Shown here: piece by piece, positions 7,367 through 13,419 of the stretch | Layout: each line of letters begins with the position of its first letter | Position numbering within the stretch: the first letter of the stretch is position 1 | Source: Rhizobium sp. NFR03 | GTDB taxonomy: Bacteria > Pseudomonadota > Alphaproteobacteria > Rhizobiales > Rhizobiaceae | Direction: 5' to 3' | Length of the DNA stretch: 64,000 nt | NCBI RefSeq assembly: GCF_900111275.1 | Contig: NZ_FOGR01000003.1 | Coordinates: forward strand, 310,001-374,000 | Notes under the pieces: generated by a model | The model's database searches: none | What the model was told of the DNA's origin: nothing | What the model saw: the letters and a program-made list of their open reading frames with translations, nothing else | Program-made: the position numbers and the translations under genes

Positions 7367-10300
7367 TCAAGAGATCAGCTCGACGTCGATCACCCCGGGG
7401 GCTGTTTTCAGAGCAGCGGCGATCTCGGCGGAGATCCGATATTTGTCGCCCAGTTCCACCTCGATCTCGCGCTGACCGTTGTCCTTCACGATGATGAACG
7501 ACACCTGCCCGTCACCCCTCGTGTTCAGATGGGTAGCAACGGAGCGGAGCGGTCCACTGTCGCGGACATAGACACGGAGCGCCTTCTGCATCTGGAACGA
7601 GCGCTCCTCCAGCGATTGCAGCGTCTGGATTCGCAGGCCGATCCCTTCCGGACGTTCCTCCGCCTGCACGGTCAGCACGAGTGATTTCCCCGGCTCCAGC
7701 AGGTCGCGATATTGCTGCAGCATTTCCGAAAACAGCACGGCCTCGAACTGTCCGGACGAATCCGAGAAGGTGACGATGCCCATCTTGTTGCCGGTGCGGG
7801 TCTTGCGCTCCTGCTTGGAGGTGACGGTGCCTGCCAGACGTCCCGCCGTATTGCCCTTCTTCACCGACAGAGCGAAGTCGGCAAAGGTCTGGCACCGGAT
7901 CTTTGCGAGCAGGTCGTTATAGGTATCCAGCGGATGGGCCGAGAGGTAGAAACCGAGCACCTGGAACTCGCGTTGCAGCTTTTCCGACGCGAGCCATGGC
8001 GTAAAATCCGGGAGGCTGATCTTCTCCGGACCTGTCGCGGCTCCAGCGCCGAACATGTCGCTCTGGCCGCTGACTTTGTCGGTGAGCGCGCGTTGCGCGA
8101 AACCGAGGATCCGGTCGAGACCGCCGCTGAGTTGCGCCCGGTCGTAGCCGAAGCCGTCAAAGGCGCCGGCGAAGATGAGGCTTTCGAACACGCGGCGGTT
8201 CAAGAGCTTCGGGTCGATACGCAGGCAGAAATCCTCAAGGCTCTTGAACGGGGTCTCGCCTCGCACAGCCACGATATGATCGACGGCCGCCTCACCCACG
8301 CCCTTGATCGCCGAGAGCGAGTAGAAGATGCGATTGTCACCTGTCTCGAAGCGACGGAACGACGTCTGCACGGAGGGGGGAACCACGGTGATGCCGAGCC
8401 GACCGGCATCCTGCCGGAAATCGACCAGCTTTTCCGTGTTCCCCATGTCGAGCGTCATGGACGCTGCGAGGAACTCGACCGGATAGTGCGCCTTGAGATA
8501 AGCCGTCTGATAGGAAACGATGGCGTAGGCCGCCGCGTGGCTCTTGTTGAAGCCGTAATTGGCAAATTTCGCGAGCAGATCGAAGATCAAATCGGCCTGA
8601 GGCTTCGACACGCCGTTCTTCACGGCGCCATCCACGAAGCGCGCCCGCTGCATGTCCATCTCGGCCTTGATCTTCTTGCCCATGGCACGCCGCAGAAGAT
8701 CGGCCTCGCCGAGCGAATAGCCGGACAGGACCTGGGCGATCTGCATCACCTGTTCCTGATAGACGATGACGCCCTGCGTCTCCTTCAGCAGATAGTCGAT
8801 GGTGGGATGGATCGATTCGATCTCTTCCTCGCCATGCTTTCGAGCATTGTAGACGGGGATGTTTTCCATGGGGCCGGGGCGGTAGAGAGCGACAAGCGCG
8901 ATGATATCCTCGATGCAGTCCGGCCGCATGCCGATCAGCGCCTTGCGCATGCCGGCACTTTCCACCTGGAACACGCCGACCGTATCGCCCTTCGACAGCA
9001 TCTCGTAGGTCTTGGCGTCGTCCAGCGGCAGCGCTTCAAGAGCGACATGGATGTCGCGCTTCGCGATGAAATCGACCGCCGTCTTCAGCACCGTCAGTGT
9101 CTTCAGTCCGAGGAAGTCGAACTTCACGAGGCCGGCCTGCTCGACCCACTTCATGTTGAATTGCGTCACCGGCATATCGGAACGCGGATCGCGATACATG
9201 GGTACCAGCTTCGACAGCGGACGGTCGCCGATGACGATGCCTGCAGCGTGGGTGGATGCGTGGCGGTAAAGGCCTTCGATCTTCTGGGCGATATCGAGCA
9301 GGCGGCCGATGACCGGTTCCTTGTCGACCTCTTCCTGAAAGCGCGGCTCGTCCTCGATCGCCTTGGCGAGCGTGACGGGGTTGGCCGGGTTGTTCGGCAC
9401 CATCTTACAGATCTTGTCGACCTGCCCGTAGGGCATTTCCAGCACACGACCGACGTCGCGAAGAGCGGCGCGTGCCTGTAGCGATCCGAACGTGATGATC
9501 TGCGCCACCTGCTCGCGGCCATACTTGGCCTGAACGTACCGGATGACCTCTTCGCGCCGGTCCTGGCAAAAATCGATATCGAAGTCGGGCATCGACACGC
9601 GTTCCGGATTGAGGAACCGTTCGAAGAGCAGCGAGAAGCGCAAGGGATCGACGTCGGTGATCGTCAGCGCATAGGCGACGAGCGATCCCGCGCCCGAGCC
9701 GCGGCCCGGACCGACCGGAATATCCTGCAGCTTCGCCCACTTGATGAAGTCGGCAACGATGAGGAAGTAGCCCGGAAACTTCATCCGTTCGATGACGCCG
9801 AGTTCGAAATCCAGCCGCTCGCGATAGTCCGTCTCGCTATAGCCGGGCGACAGGCCGAGCTTCTGCATCCGCTCTTCCAGACCTTCTATGGCCTGACGGC
9901 GCAGTTCGAGCGATTCCGCCCGTTCGGCCTCCGCCGGATCGTCGGACACACCGGTGAAGCGCGGCAGGATCGGTGCGCGGGTCTTCAGCACGAAGGTGCA
10001 TCGCCGCGCGACCTCGATCGTGTTGTCGAGCGCTTCCGGCAGATCGGCGAACAGCTTCGCCATCTCCTGCCGGCTCTTGAGGTAGTGGTCGGGCGTCAGG
10101 CGGAAGCGGGTATCGTCAGACACCATCGCGTTATGTGCAACCGCCATCAGCGCGTCATGAGCATCATAGTCGCCAGGCGTGGGGAAGAAGGGTTCGTTGG
10201 TCGCCACCAGCGGCAGTTCCAGCCGGTAGGCAAGATCGATCATCCGGTTCTCATGCCGCTTGTCGTAGCGCCCGTGGCGCTGCAACTCGATATAAAGTCG

Positions 10301-10876
10301 ATCATCGAAAAGCTCCATTAGGCAACGCGCCCTCGCCTCGGCAAGCGCTGCATGGCCGGAACGGATGGCGATATCGATCGGCCCGCCGGATGCGCCCGTC
10401 AAAGCAATGAGCCCGTCTGTGCCGATCTCCTTCAGCCAGGACAGGCAAATCCGGACACTTTGGTTGCCCTCCCCGCCGAGGTAGGCACGGCTGACGAGGT
10501 CCACGAGATTGACGTAGCCGGCATCCGTCGCCGCAATAAGAACGATGGCCGGAAGCTTGGCAAGGTGCTGCGCATGCCCGCGCTTCTCGCCCTCGACCTC
10601 ATCCTCCATATCGATCGATAACTGGCAGCCGATCAGCGGCTGGATGCCGTCATCCATACATTTCAGTGAAAATTCAAGCGCCGCGAACAGATTGTTCGTG
10701 TCGGCGATCCCGATGGCCGGCTGCGCGTCGGCAACGGCCTTGCCAATGATCTTCTTGATCGGCAAAGCGCCTTCGAGAAGCGAGAAAGCCGAATGGGTTC
10801 TTAAGTGGACGAACTGCGGCGCAGGCTTGTCACCACTGCCCGTCCCGCCCGCAAAGCTTCCACCTGCATCCGCCAT
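7367..10876 (-). CDS. dnaE: DNA polymerase III alpha subunit
   Basis: 1169 residues, the normal size of DnaE1, the replicative C-family polymerase. Domains in order are PHP (HLRTHSAFS from residue 24), palm and thumb with the catalytic triad in DFDIDF (Asp431, Asp433, Asp435), fingers, a helix-hairpin-helix region, and the OB-fold plus C-terminal tau-binding part. A GGAG lies before the ATG. It is the main polymerase rather than the error-prone DnaE2, because no imuA/imuB neighbours are present and the length fits DnaE1. The small SOS-boxed membrane protein gene lies 111 bases upstream on the same strand with no obvious terminator between, so read-through from that promoter is possible. Confidence 0.97.
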   Translation of the reverse strand: MADAGGSFAGGTGSGDKPAPQFVHLRTHSAFSLLEGALPIKKIIGKAVADAQPAIGIADTNNLFAALEFSLKCMDDGIQPLIGCQLSIDMEDEVEGEKRGHAQHLAKLPAIVLIAATDAGYVNLVDLVSRAYLGGEGNQSVRICLSWLKEIGTDGLIALTGASGGPIDIAIRSGHAALAEARARCLMELFDDRLYIELQRHGRYDKRHENRMIDLAYRLELPLVATNEPFFPTPGDYDAHDALMAVAHNAMVSDDTRFRLTPDHYLKSRQEMAKLFADLPEALDNTIEVARRCTFVLKTRAPILPRFTGVSDDPAEAERAESLELRRQAIEGLEERMQKLGLSPGYSETDYRERLDFELGVIERMKFPGYFLIVADFIKWAKLQDIPVGPGRGSGAGSLVAYALTITDVDPLRFSLLFERFLNPERVSMPDFDIDFCQDRREEVIRYVQAKYGREQVAQIITFGSLQARAALRDVGRVLEMPYGQVDKICKMVPNNPANPVTLAKAIEDEPRFQEEVDKEPVIGRLLDIAQKIEGLYRHASTHAAGIVIGDRPLSKLVPMYRDPRSDMPVTQFNMKWVEQAGLVKFDFLGLKTLTVLKTAVDFIAKRDIHVALEALPLDDAKTYEMLSKGDTVGVFQVESAGMRKALIGMRPDCIEDIIALVALYRPGPMENIPVYNARKHGEEEIESIHPTIDYLLKETQGVIVYQEQVMQIAQVLSGYSLGEADLLRRAMGKKIKAEMDMQRARFVDGAVKNGVSKPQADLIFDLLAKFANYGFNKSHAAAYAIVSYQTAYLKAHYPVEFLAASMTLDMGNTEKLVDFRQDAGRLGITVVPPSVQTSFRRFETGDNRIFYSLSAIKGVGEAAVDHIVAVRGETPFKSLEDFCLRIDPKLLNRRVFESLIFAGAFDGFGYDRAQLSGGLDRILGFAQRALTDKVSGQSDMFGAGAATGPEKISLPDFTPWLASEKLQREFQVLGFYLSAHPLDTYNDLLAKIRCQTFADFALSVKKGNTAGRLAGTVTSKQERKTRTGNKMGIVTFSDSSGQFEAVLFSEMLQQYRDLLEPGKSLVLTVQAEERPEGIGLRIQTLQSLEERSFQMQKALRVYVRDSGPLRSVATHLNTRGDGQVSFIIVKDNGQREIEVELGDKYRISAEIAAALKTAPGVIDVELIS

Positions 10877-10987
10877 AGGTCACTCCGACTCTTGCATGAG
10901 ATGAAAGCATACGCTCTTCGGCCATGCGAAGCGACAACGGCGTGGTGTTCTCCCCCGGAACTTCCGGGATTCCAGACCGGCGTTGTC

Positions 10988-11074
10988 CTAGAGGCCGAGG
11001 AGAAGGATAGAGAAGCTGGCAACGAACATGGCGATGGAGGTCAGTGCGGCGAGATCACGAAGGAAGTCGGACAT
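10988..11074 (-). CDS. 28-aa single-pass membrane protein, likely SOS-induced
   Basis: A very short gene with a strong ribosome site (AAAGGAG at 11081-11087, 6 bases before the ATG) and a TAG stop. The peptide starts MSDFLRDLAALTS and is hydrophobic from about residue 9 to its last residue, one transmembrane helix with a short charged cytoplasmic head. Three LexA half-sites cover the promoter just upstream. The Caulobacter SOS-induced division inhibitor SidA is a 29-residue inner-membrane peptide under LexA control; this gene shares size, topology and control, but I could not compare sequences, so homology is not claimed. dnaE follows downstream. Coding status rests on the ribosome site, the hydrophobic pattern and the promoter. 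Confidence 0.75.
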   Translation of the reverse strand: MSDFLRDLAALTSIAMFVASFSILLLGL

Positions 11075-11094
11075 GGCGTGCTCCTTTTGGTTAT

Positions 11095-11120
11095 GTTCAT
11101 CTTATGTTCTATTTCTGTTC
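11095..11120. promoter_or_regulatory. triple LexA half-site (SOS operator)
   Basis: GTTC at 11095-11098, 11106-11109 and 11117-11120 are each separated by exactly seven bases, giving two overlapping copies of the alphaproteobacterial SOS box GTTC-N7-GTTC (GAAC-N7-GAAC when read on the minus strand). They overlap the promoter of the 28-aa membrane protein gene. Confidence 0.85.
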
Positions 11121-11129
11121 GCGTTTCAA
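11100..11129 (-). promoter_or_regulatory. promoter of the 28-aa protein gene
   Basis: On the minus strand TTGAAA (11129-11124) and CATAAG or ATAAGA (11106-11100) are 17 or 18 bases apart. Two LexA half-sites lie in the spacer and one just past the -10 element, so bound LexA would block polymerase. The transcript leader would be only about 20 bases. Confidence 0.6.
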
Positions 11130-11256
11130 GTTCTGAATCTTATGGATGGTTAACAATTTTCGATGGGATTTTGGAGAGTTTGGGCCAGCGTCCGCTGTGC
11201 GAGAGCCGCCCGGGATGTTTGCCTGGGAATGCGGCGTGCGGGTCTCGGTACGCACG

Positions 11257-11330: not shown

Positions 11331-12020
11331 TCAGGCGAGTTCGACGACCTTGCCGTCCTGAAGCGTGATGCGACGGTCCATCTTGGAAGCCAGATCGTAA
11401 TTGTGCGTCGCGATCATCGCGGCCAGGCCGGATTGCTTGACGAGGGCCTTCAGCGCCTCGAAGACATAACCGGCCGTCTCGGGATCGAGGTTGCCGGTCG
11501 GCTCGTCGGCCAGGAGCACGAAAGGCGCATTGGCGACCGCCCGGGCGATCGCCACGCGCTGCTGCTCACCACCCGACAGCTCCGACGGACGATGATCGGC
11601 GCGGTGACCGATGCGCATATAATCGAGCAACGCCGAGGCGCGTTCGCGCGCCTCCTTCTTCGAGAGGCCGGCGATGAGCTGCGGCATCATGATGTTTTCC
11701 ACGGCTGTGAATTCCGGCAGCAGATGGTGGAACTGGTAGACGAAGCCGATCTCGTTCCGGCGGATGGCTGTTCGCTCGGGATCACTGAGCGAGCCGCATG
11801 CCCGACCGTTGATCGAGACCTCACCGGCATCCGGGCGCTCCAACAGGCCGGCCAGATGCAGAAGAGTCGATTTGCCGGTGCCCGATGGCGCGACGAGTGC
11901 GACCGTCTGCCCGCCGAGAAGACGGAAGTCGGCGCCCTTCAGGATCGAGAGCGCCTGTTCGCCCTGACTGTAGTGGCGCTCGACGCCGGAAAGCTCTAGT
12001 GCCACGCGAGGGGCCATCAT
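11331..12020 (-). CDS. lolD: lipoprotein-releasing ABC transporter ATPase LolD
   Basis: A 229-residue ABC ATPase with Walker [10 protein letters not shown] (44-52), signature [14 protein letters not shown] and Walker [12 protein letters not shown]. The Gly-to-Ala change at the start of the P-loop (APSG) is tolerated in the family. The MacB/LolD-type Q-loop region ([15 protein letters not shown]) points to LolD. It powers extraction of outer-membrane-directed lipoproteins from the inner membrane for LolA. It begins 10 bases after the permease gene, so the operon is proS-lolC-lolD. Confidence 0.93.
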
Positions 12021-12030
12021 ATCGTTCCTG

Positions 12031-13419
12031 TCACTCGTAACGCAGCGCCTGGACGGGATCCAGTCGGGAGGCCCGCCATGCGGGGAAGATGGTTGCCAGG
12101 AACGACAGTCCGATGGCCATGCCGACGACCGCGACGGTCTCGCCGAGATTCATATCGGCGGGCAGCTGGCTGAGGAAATAGAGCTCCGGGTTGAAGATCG
12201 TCGTGCCCGAGATCCATGAGAAGAACTGGCGGATCGATTCGATATTCAGGCACACGACAACACCCAGCCCCACACCCGCCAGCGTGCCGACGATGCCGAT
12301 GGCCGCACCCGTCATGAAGAAGATGCGCATGACCGCGCCGGAGGACGCGCCCATGGTGCGTAGAATGGCGATGTCGCTGCCCTTGTCCTTCACCAGCATG
12401 ATCAGGCCCGACACGATATTCAGCGCCGCAACCAGAACGATCAGGGTCAGGATCATGAACATGACGTTGCGCTCGACCTGAAGCGCCGAGAAGAAGGTCT
12501 TGTTGCGGTCTCGCCAGTCGCTGATCAGCACCTGCCTCTGGGCGGCGTCTTCCACAGGCTGGCGCAGGCTGTCGACGAGATCCGGCTTCTCCACGAAGAG
12601 CTCGATCGACTGCGCGATGCCCTCGGCATTGAAGTAGAGCTGCGCCTCCTCCAGCGGCATGAAGATGATCGACGCGTCATATTCCGACATGCCGATCTCG
12701 AAGATCGCGGACACGGTATAGGACTTCACGCGCGGATTGACGCCCATGGGCGTCACATCGCCTTCCGGCGCCACCAGCGTGATCGTGCTGCCGGCCTGGA
12801 GGCCGAGCTGGTCGGCCATGCGCGAGCCGATGGCGACGCCGCCGCCCGTCGCATAACCGGTCAGATCGCCTGATTTCAGGTGATCGGAGATCGACTTCAT
12901 CTTCACGAGATCATCGGCGCGCACGCCGCGCACGAGCGCGCCGGTGCCCGCCCCGCCGGGACCGGAAGCCAGCGTCTGCCCCTCGATCATCGGGATCGCC
13001 ATGGTGACGCCCTTGATGCCGGAGAAGCGCGTCGCCAGATCGGCGTAGTTGTCGAGCGGGCCATCCAGCGGCTGCACGATCATGTGGCCGTTGATGCCCA
13101 GAATACGGGAGATGAGTTCCGTCCGGAACCCGTTCATCACCGCCATGACGATGATGAGCGTGGCGACACCGAGCATGATGCCGATGAAGGAGAAACCGGC
13201 AATGACGGAGATGAACGCTTCCTTGCGGCGCGAGCGCAGATAGCGCCATGCGACCAGCCGCTCGAAGGTCGAAAACGGACGGCTGGAAGCAGCCTTCGAC
13301 GGCTTTTCACCGGACGGCGTTTCCTTCGGCGGTGCGCCCTTCGAGGCTGTCTTCAGTCCGGCCTTGGGCGGCGTCGCCGATGCCTTTGCCGGTTTCGGGT
13401 CCGTGGAAGGGGCGCTCAT
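12031..13419 (-). CDS. lolC: lipoprotein-releasing ABC permease (LolC/LolE family)
   Basis: 462 residues. An unusual Ala/Lys/Pro-rich, low-complexity tail of about 48 residues precedes the first membrane helix ([21 protein letters not shown]). A large periplasmic domain follows, then three C-terminal helices, the LolC/LolE/FtsX layout. It binds LolD. Only one permease gene is present here, so the complex is probably LolDF-like with a homodimeric permease, as in many bacteria outside the enterics; a second gene elsewhere cannot be excluded. The start is 9 bases from the proS stop. Confidence 0.9.

Follow-up and report, generated by a model that had tools for sequence, protein, structure and literature searches.

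A short gene directly upstream of dnaE in Rhizobium sp. NFR03 is best explained as encoding a LexA-controlled membrane peptide of the SidA type, a reading that we consider very likely on the sequence evidence and under which the peptide would arrest cell division during the SOS response. The gene lies in a 64-kb window (the whole stretch of DNA that was analysed), where a minus-strand ORF at 10988..11074 starts with ATG, runs over 28 codons, and yields the product MSDFLRDLAALTSIAMFVASFSILLLGL. The features that an earlier note had read from the letters alone were borne out, namely, the 28 codons with a good ribosome site ahead of them, a single hydrophobic segment, and a GTTC half-site repeated three times at 7-base spacing. 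The locus is made up of the following elements.

7367..10876, minus strand: dnaE, DNA polymerase III alpha; same-strand downstream neighbour, separated from the peptide stop codon by 111 bases
10988..11074, minus strand: ORF of 28 codons, proposed as a sidA orthologue; its product is a predicted single-pass membrane peptide
11081..11088, minus strand: ribosome site AAAAGGAG, ending 6 nt 5' of the peptide ATG
11095..11120, no strand assigned: three LexA half-sites GAAC-N7-GAAC-N7-GAAC (GTTC on the plus strand) at 11117-11120, 11106-11109, and 11095-11098; a sequence pattern kept in relatives
11101..11106, minus strand: predicted -10 element CATAAG (by inspection), sharing one base with the middle half-site
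11124..11129, minus strand: predicted -35 element TTGAAA (by inspection)
11331..12020, minus strand: lolD, upstream neighbour; best NCBIfam match LolD at 258.6 bits, under the cut-off of 307.75
12031..13419, minus strand: lolC/E permease; conserved context

Judged by hydropathy only, the peptide contains one hydrophobic segment, which spans residues 8-26 and reaches a best 19-residue Kyte-Doolittle mean of 2.31. Searches of Pfam and PDB returned no match for it. Among 51 members scanned with Pfam, four families were hit by 1-2 members each, with a best E of 0.048, and we regard these hits as chance.

LexA half-sites and promoter

The predicted -35 and -10 elements are separated by a spacer of 17 nt, which by inspection contains most of the first LexA box. 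The triple pattern GTTC-N7-GTTC-N7-GTTC on the plus strand (11095-11120) is the sole match in the 64-kb window and did not occur in 100 dinucleotide shuffles; a single pair, GTTC-N7-GTTC, is unremarkable, with 4 occurrences in the window versus 2.37 expected. The 5.4-Mb genome as a whole contains 14 copies of GAACA-N6-GAACA, 2 of them at the peptide promoter, compared with 4 of the backwards-pattern control. Six of the 12 remaining sites lie near repair/SOS-type genes, that is, lexA (TIGR00498, PF01726) and the genes for a recQ-type helicase, a YifB/ComM-type ATPase, a UDG-linked radical-SAM protein, a UvrD-type helicase, and an ImuA-like protein (NCBIfam match under cut-off), while the other 6 are inside genes or near unknown genes. 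Given this genome-wide excess together with the repair/SOS neighbours, GAACA-N6-GAACA is most likely the LexA motif of the Rhizobium sp. NFR03 genome.

Two further LexA-type boxes of the same genome, L097 (G000:C13:34280-34295) and L109 (G000:C23:10533-10548), each stand 5' of a 79-residue ORF. Neither ORF has a match in Pfam or NCBIfam, and we list both as candidate SOS genes to which families assign no function.

Conservation of the gene and of its place before dnaE

A search with the single sequence gave matches in 25 of 61 genomes at E ≤ 10, a few of them chance, and a profile built from 17 relatives (E ≤ 0.1) matched 344 of 394 Rhizobiaceae genomes, with 99 of 109 genera represented; the weak matches in this tally may include chance ones. 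The coding sequence was compared among 80 named relatives, which are the best 80 of 133 loci from one scan (Rhizobium, Shinella, Pararhizobium, and others). In all of these best 80 of 133, the ATG and the 28 codons are kept, and 33 disjoint pairs formed from them give differences by codon position of 51/8/155 and a pN/pS of 0.13, a low value that is favoured by the fact that the named loci were picked by protein similarity. In the remaining two frames, the same 33 pairs give pN/pS values of 1.27 and 6.05. The 28-codon ORF is a real gene. Across 63 distinct Rhizobiaceae peptides, Met1, Asp7, Ser13, and Phe17 are invariant, and the conservation shows a helix periodicity that is suggestive only (p 0.057).

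The LexA box is retained along with the peptide. Even though the box played no part in the search, GAAC-N7-GAAC is exact in 77 of the 80 named relatives (best 80 of 133); TTGAC is found in 78 of these best 80 and begins 9 nt ahead of the box in 75 of the 77 with an exact box. The third half-site, [G/A]AAC, stands in register in 73 of 76 named promoters. We also compiled 76 distinct Rhizobiaceae loci, comprising 87 loci (L009-L095) minus identical repeats and minus L029, L031, L033, and L034, which score below 55. An exact box lies at most 90 nt off in 68 of them, and the other 8 have a one-mismatch form by inspection. Conservation in relatives, which the earlier note had named as a check on its reading, thus covers the length and frame of the ORF, the protein sequence, the LexA box, and the genomic position.

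In 5 of 6 same-genus relatives (L010, L011, L013, L014, and L015), the middle half-site reads GTAC, not GAAC, with the outer two intact; such an operator might be weaker or spaced in another way, and the variant counts against the SidA-type reading. The Rhizobiaceae genomes G171, G307, G080, G257, and G386 contain 3-4 peptide-profile matches each, for which paralogues or chance are both possible. LexA is still present in 16 of 20 Rhizobiaceae genomes without a peptide match, which likewise counts against the SidA-type reading. Several of these 20 genomes are reduced (1.1-2.0 Mb).

At the order level, a wider profile matched 99 of 397 genomes at E ≤ 0.1, 19 of them Rhizobiaceae. We looked at 51 loci from other Hyphomicrobiales families, 12 delivered with the search and 39 hand-picked from the match list, and 48 of them carry an ORF of at most 50 codons. 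An exact box lies within 110 nt of this short ORF in 38 of the 48 and a box with one mismatch in 8 more, compared with 46/10,000 in shuffled upstream DNA; many of the boxed loci had peptide E-values of only 0.001-0.07. At the class level, the wider profile matched 3 of 385 genomes, and with 32-residue members added, the number rose to 96 of 385 at E ≤ 0.5, mostly chance. Among the class loci checked, 9 of 29 carried both a short ORF and an exact box, 7 of these 9 coming from outside the order Hyphomicrobiales.

A search free of peptide similarity was performed with dnaE as the anchor, reading at most 1.3 kb ahead of the gene in 80 class genomes. The dnaE search matched 132 of 142 class genomes, from which the 80 were taken as the top 85 by E-value minus G779 and G773 (already analysed) and minus G777, G802, and G896; contig ends shortened 2 of the 80 upstream stretches. 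An exact box with a hydrophobic ORF of 29-38 aa just 5' of dnaE was found in 12 of the 80 genomes, against 1/1600 in shuffles and 0/80 on the opposite strand. Three more of the 80 have a one-mismatch box with such an ORF (16/1600 in shuffles allowing at most one mismatch). The remaining 65 genomes have no such locus 5' of dnaE, which again counts against the SidA-type reading. In the order of G833, selected for the 29-residue peptide of that genome, 40 of 100 genomes were covered, and the box was exact in 29, had one mismatch in 6, and was absent in 5; in the family labelled f115, the locus is present in 20 of 20 genomes, 16 with an exact box and 4 with one mismatch; the shuffle control covers the class search only. 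Short ORFs with such a box are found ahead of dnaE in further families and orders as well. A chance ORF or a chance box is ruled out by the conservation, the low pN/pS, and the shuffle and opposite-strand controls.

The neighbour downstream is equally constant. dnaE comes next at 80 of 80 named loci (best 80 of 133), at 32 of 40 cross-genus Rhizobiaceae loci, and at 19 of 20 other-family loci, including 6 of 7 from other orders; the 20th, L263, reaches a contig end. The Rhizobiaceae locus L209 has no dnaE. In named relatives, dnaE is on the same strand and starts ∼98-182 nt past the last codon of the peptide, an arrangement that would also suit a dnaE leader ORF, in which case the LexA promoter would mainly boost the supply of DNA polymerase III alpha in damaged cells, and translating the ORF would tune dnaE. 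The same reading could draw on sORF25 of Sinorhizobium meliloti 2011, a translated small ORF described in the 5'-UTR of dnaE1 (PMC10117765). However, selection acts on the amino acids, and 8 of 40 Rhizobiaceae loci (L063, L064, L066, L072, L079, L082, L084, and L085) keep the ORF and the exact box with no dnaE within 4 kb, and we hold a role as a leader ORF to be highly improbable.

In S. meliloti Ak57, a 28-codon relative lies between lolD and dnaE, preceded by triple LexA half-sites and unannotated in a gene table that is itself incomplete. We consider that sORF25 is probably the S. meliloti version of the window gene, published without an SOS link: the terms LexA, SOS, and DNA damage have 0 occurrences in the available main text on sORF25 (PMC10117765). 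The earlier suggestion that the gene may be undescribed therefore stands in part. No report of a rhizobial SidA was found in the open-licence literature, but a translated ORF before dnaE1 had already been published as sORF25.

Approximately 100 nt ahead of dnaE (about 10877-10960 in the window) are conserved in 6 of 7 same-genus genomes, including L010-L014, and perhaps represent dnaE's own promoter and leader. The fold of this stretch is not better than that of shuffles (z -0.93).

TisB is a tiny LexA-controlled membrane peptide of a type I toxin-antitoxin locus; TisB/DinQ loci have antisense RNA and long leaders, and toxin-antitoxin loci are typically patchy in distribution. The window peptide resembles TisB and DinQ of E. 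coli in that it is tiny, has one predicted membrane helix, and appears to be under LexA control, and taken by themselves, its size, hydrophobicity, and regulation would suit a toxin of this kind, which would lower the membrane potential and slow growth after damage while an antisense RNA checks it. The conserved ∼100 nt ahead of dnaE could house such an RNA, and E. coli DinQ, a toxic single-membrane peptide that is regulated by LexA and accompanied by antisense RNAs, is a described case (PMC3567139). Unlike those loci, however, the window locus has no apparent antisense-RNA partner or long leader, the predicted leader being merely ∼20-25 nt, and its context differs. Most of the Rhizobiaceae genomes listed hold a single match, in one place and under purifying selection, the stretch ahead of dnaE folds no better than shuffled sequence, and the peptide has a profile relation to SidA. 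Because of the predicted leader of 20-25 nt, the selection at the protein level, and the 8 of 40 loci without dnaE, both the toxin and the leader ORF are less likely than a SidA-type peptide, and a TisB/DinQ-type toxin seems improbable to us.

Relation to Caulobacter SidA

SidA of Caulobacter is induced by DNA damage through LexA, resides in the inner membrane, and blocks division via FtsW/FtsN (PMC4211646). Like SidA, with its 29 aa and one membrane segment, the window peptide has 28 residues and one hydrophobic segment (from 28 codons and hydropathy only), a GTTC-N7-GTTC LexA box at the promoter, present as a sequence pattern conserved in relatives, and a place directly upstream of dnaE, an adjacency that for Caulobacter itself we infer from locus numbers. 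In that organism, sidA is CCNA_02004 (PMC10769358) and CCNA_02005 is a nucleoside hydrolase (PMC3667746); dnaE and recN of C. crescentus are CC1926 and CC1983 (PMC1839093), and recN is also ccna_02062 (PMC12700426). Given the CC-to-CCNA offset of 79 at recN, CC1926 (dnaE) would hardly be other than the neighbour of sidA. Unlike SidA, the window peptide lacks Trp19, differs in its C-terminal half, comes from another bacterial order, and is missed by the curated SidA model.

This model, NCBIfam NF033228 (div_inhib_SidA, an equivalog with a cut-off of 35 bits), was run against 15 of the 21 peptides (29-31 residues) from family f115, which had been found by their place before dnaE, without peptide similarity. 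All 15 matched, and 9 clear the cut-off (44.3-72.4 bits), while the other 6, all of genus g306, fall under it (13.8-33.5 bits). Since only 9 of 15 pass, the cut-off also misses syntenic genes inside f115. NF033228 gave no match to the window peptide and matched 0 of 51 Rhizobiaceae members, which places the window peptide outside the curated equivalog; among 39 wider members, there was a single weak match (E 0.067).

A relation to SidA is nevertheless detectable when profiles are compared. The rhizobial and f115 profiles align without gaps over 19 columns (residues 1-19) with 37% identity, an E of 6.5e-6, and a probability of 84.8, and the shared residues in this alignment are Arg6, Asp/Glu7, Leu/Phe11, Ser13, and Phe17. 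When the rhizobial profile was applied to 14 f115 peptides, 9 scored above all 300 whole-sequence shuffles, 4 were equalled or beaten by 1-10 of the 300, and one failed (105 of 300); against block shuffles, just 6 of the 14 stood above all 300. Trp19, invariant in 15 f115 peptides, is missing from the window peptide, and in a hydrophobic helix of 28 residues, similarity can arise through convergence.

The neighbouring genes bear on the identity of f115. L378 (genus g522) shows the arrangement lolC, lolD, a nucleoside hydrolase gene (PF01156, 2.5e-78, opposite strand), the peptide, and dnaE. The hydrolase gene precedes the peptide in 4 of 6 g522 loci, in agreement with the Caulobacter numbers for sidA and CCNA_02005, and is absent in L375 and L377, which counts against the SidA-type reading; it was detected by Pfam and protein comparison, a strict motif search having missed it. 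lolD is found at 14 of 21 f115 loci. From the SidA model matches and these neighbour genes, we infer that f115 corresponds to the Caulobacteraceae. A published LexA-box word did not serve to single out Caulobacter, as it occurs in 10 of 32 genomes. The f115 matches to the SidA model and the ungapped profile alignment strengthen the case for an orthologue over a mere analogue, and the window gene is most likely a divergent sidA orthologue outside the present NF033228 model. The idea of a rhizobial SidA counterpart, which the earlier note had put forward as a functional analogy, is in this sense supported beyond analogy, by boxed peptides in the same place that match NF033228 and by profiles that align.

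A common origin with SidA would also agree with a LexA-regulated small membrane peptide acting on another envelope target, such as the Lol system encoded next to it. Of the named relatives (best 80 of 133), 76 of 80 have lolD as the upstream gene, and the C-terminal half of the peptide is unlike that of the f115 SidA peptides. On the other hand, most f115 peptides share the core of the peptide and its N-terminal half (Arg6, Asp/Glu7, Ser13, and Phe17), and 11 of 40 Rhizobiaceae loci retain the gene without an adjoining lolD; we regard another target as decidedly improbable.

Proposed role in the SOS response

Upon DNA damage, RecA triggers the self-cleavage of LexA. For a SidA-type division inhibitor at this locus, LexA bound to two or three direct-repeat half-sites would cover the promoter in the undamaged cell and keep it off, and after damage the RecA-triggered self-cleavage would allow the promoter to fire ∼20-25 nt ahead of the ATG. 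The peptide would then enter the inner membrane, with its N terminus (Arg6) predicted inside by the positive-inside rule, where its partner would be the late septal machinery FtsW/FtsN, the one described for Caulobacter SidA, with contact perhaps via the conserved Asp7, Ser13, Phe17, and Ser/Thr20. By orthology, septum synthesis would be held until repair is complete.

The proposed SOS-induced division stop is shared with YneA, SosA, DivS, and ChiZ, which are larger proteins of Gram-positive bacteria. YneA is SOS-induced and stops division through FtsW, and DivS and ChiZ are likewise described as SOS division inhibitors (PMC4211646). SulA (PF03846) was found in 0 of 41 genomes, including the window's own and 25 Rhizobiaceae, with a positive E. 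coli control, and no report of an SOS division inhibitor for the Rhizobiaceae was found in the open-licence literature. As a more speculative extension, which we think doubtful though worth stating, lolC-lolD-sidA-dnaE may form a checkpoint unit of ancient origin in the Alphaproteobacteria, and sidA would then be no speciality of Caulobacter. A single LexA promoter of this unit would stop division and, by read-through, raise the replicative polymerase, coupling septum arrest to replication capacity, and the rhizobial branch would supply the SOS division inhibitor that the Rhizobiaceae have seemed to lack.

If the SidA-type reading is true, most Rhizobiaceae genomes (344 of 394 matched) harbour an unannotated SOS division inhibitor, and SidA would be a far wider family than the curated model, which here recognised f115 peptides only. 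It would also offer a direct test of how polar-growing rhizobia restrain division under damage, 63 distinct natural variants with which to map the FtsW/FtsN-touching residues of a 28-residue peptide, and an improved annotation model for a class of genes that is usually missed.

A phage or plasmid origin of the gene was considered and rejected, there being no phage record and no confirmed viral contig among the matches. None of the additional dnaE copies carried by six alphaproteobacterial plasmids (L289-L294) has an exact box in the 1.2 kb upstream. Five plasmid-labelled records (3.5-4.6 Mb) match the peptide, and the one from S. meliloti has proS-lolC-lolD-dnaE at the locus. This record, CP090106.1 (L190; 3.7 Mb), is labelled plasmid pSymB, and since it bears proS, lolC, lolD, and dnaE, it resembles a main chromosome that has been wrongly labelled.
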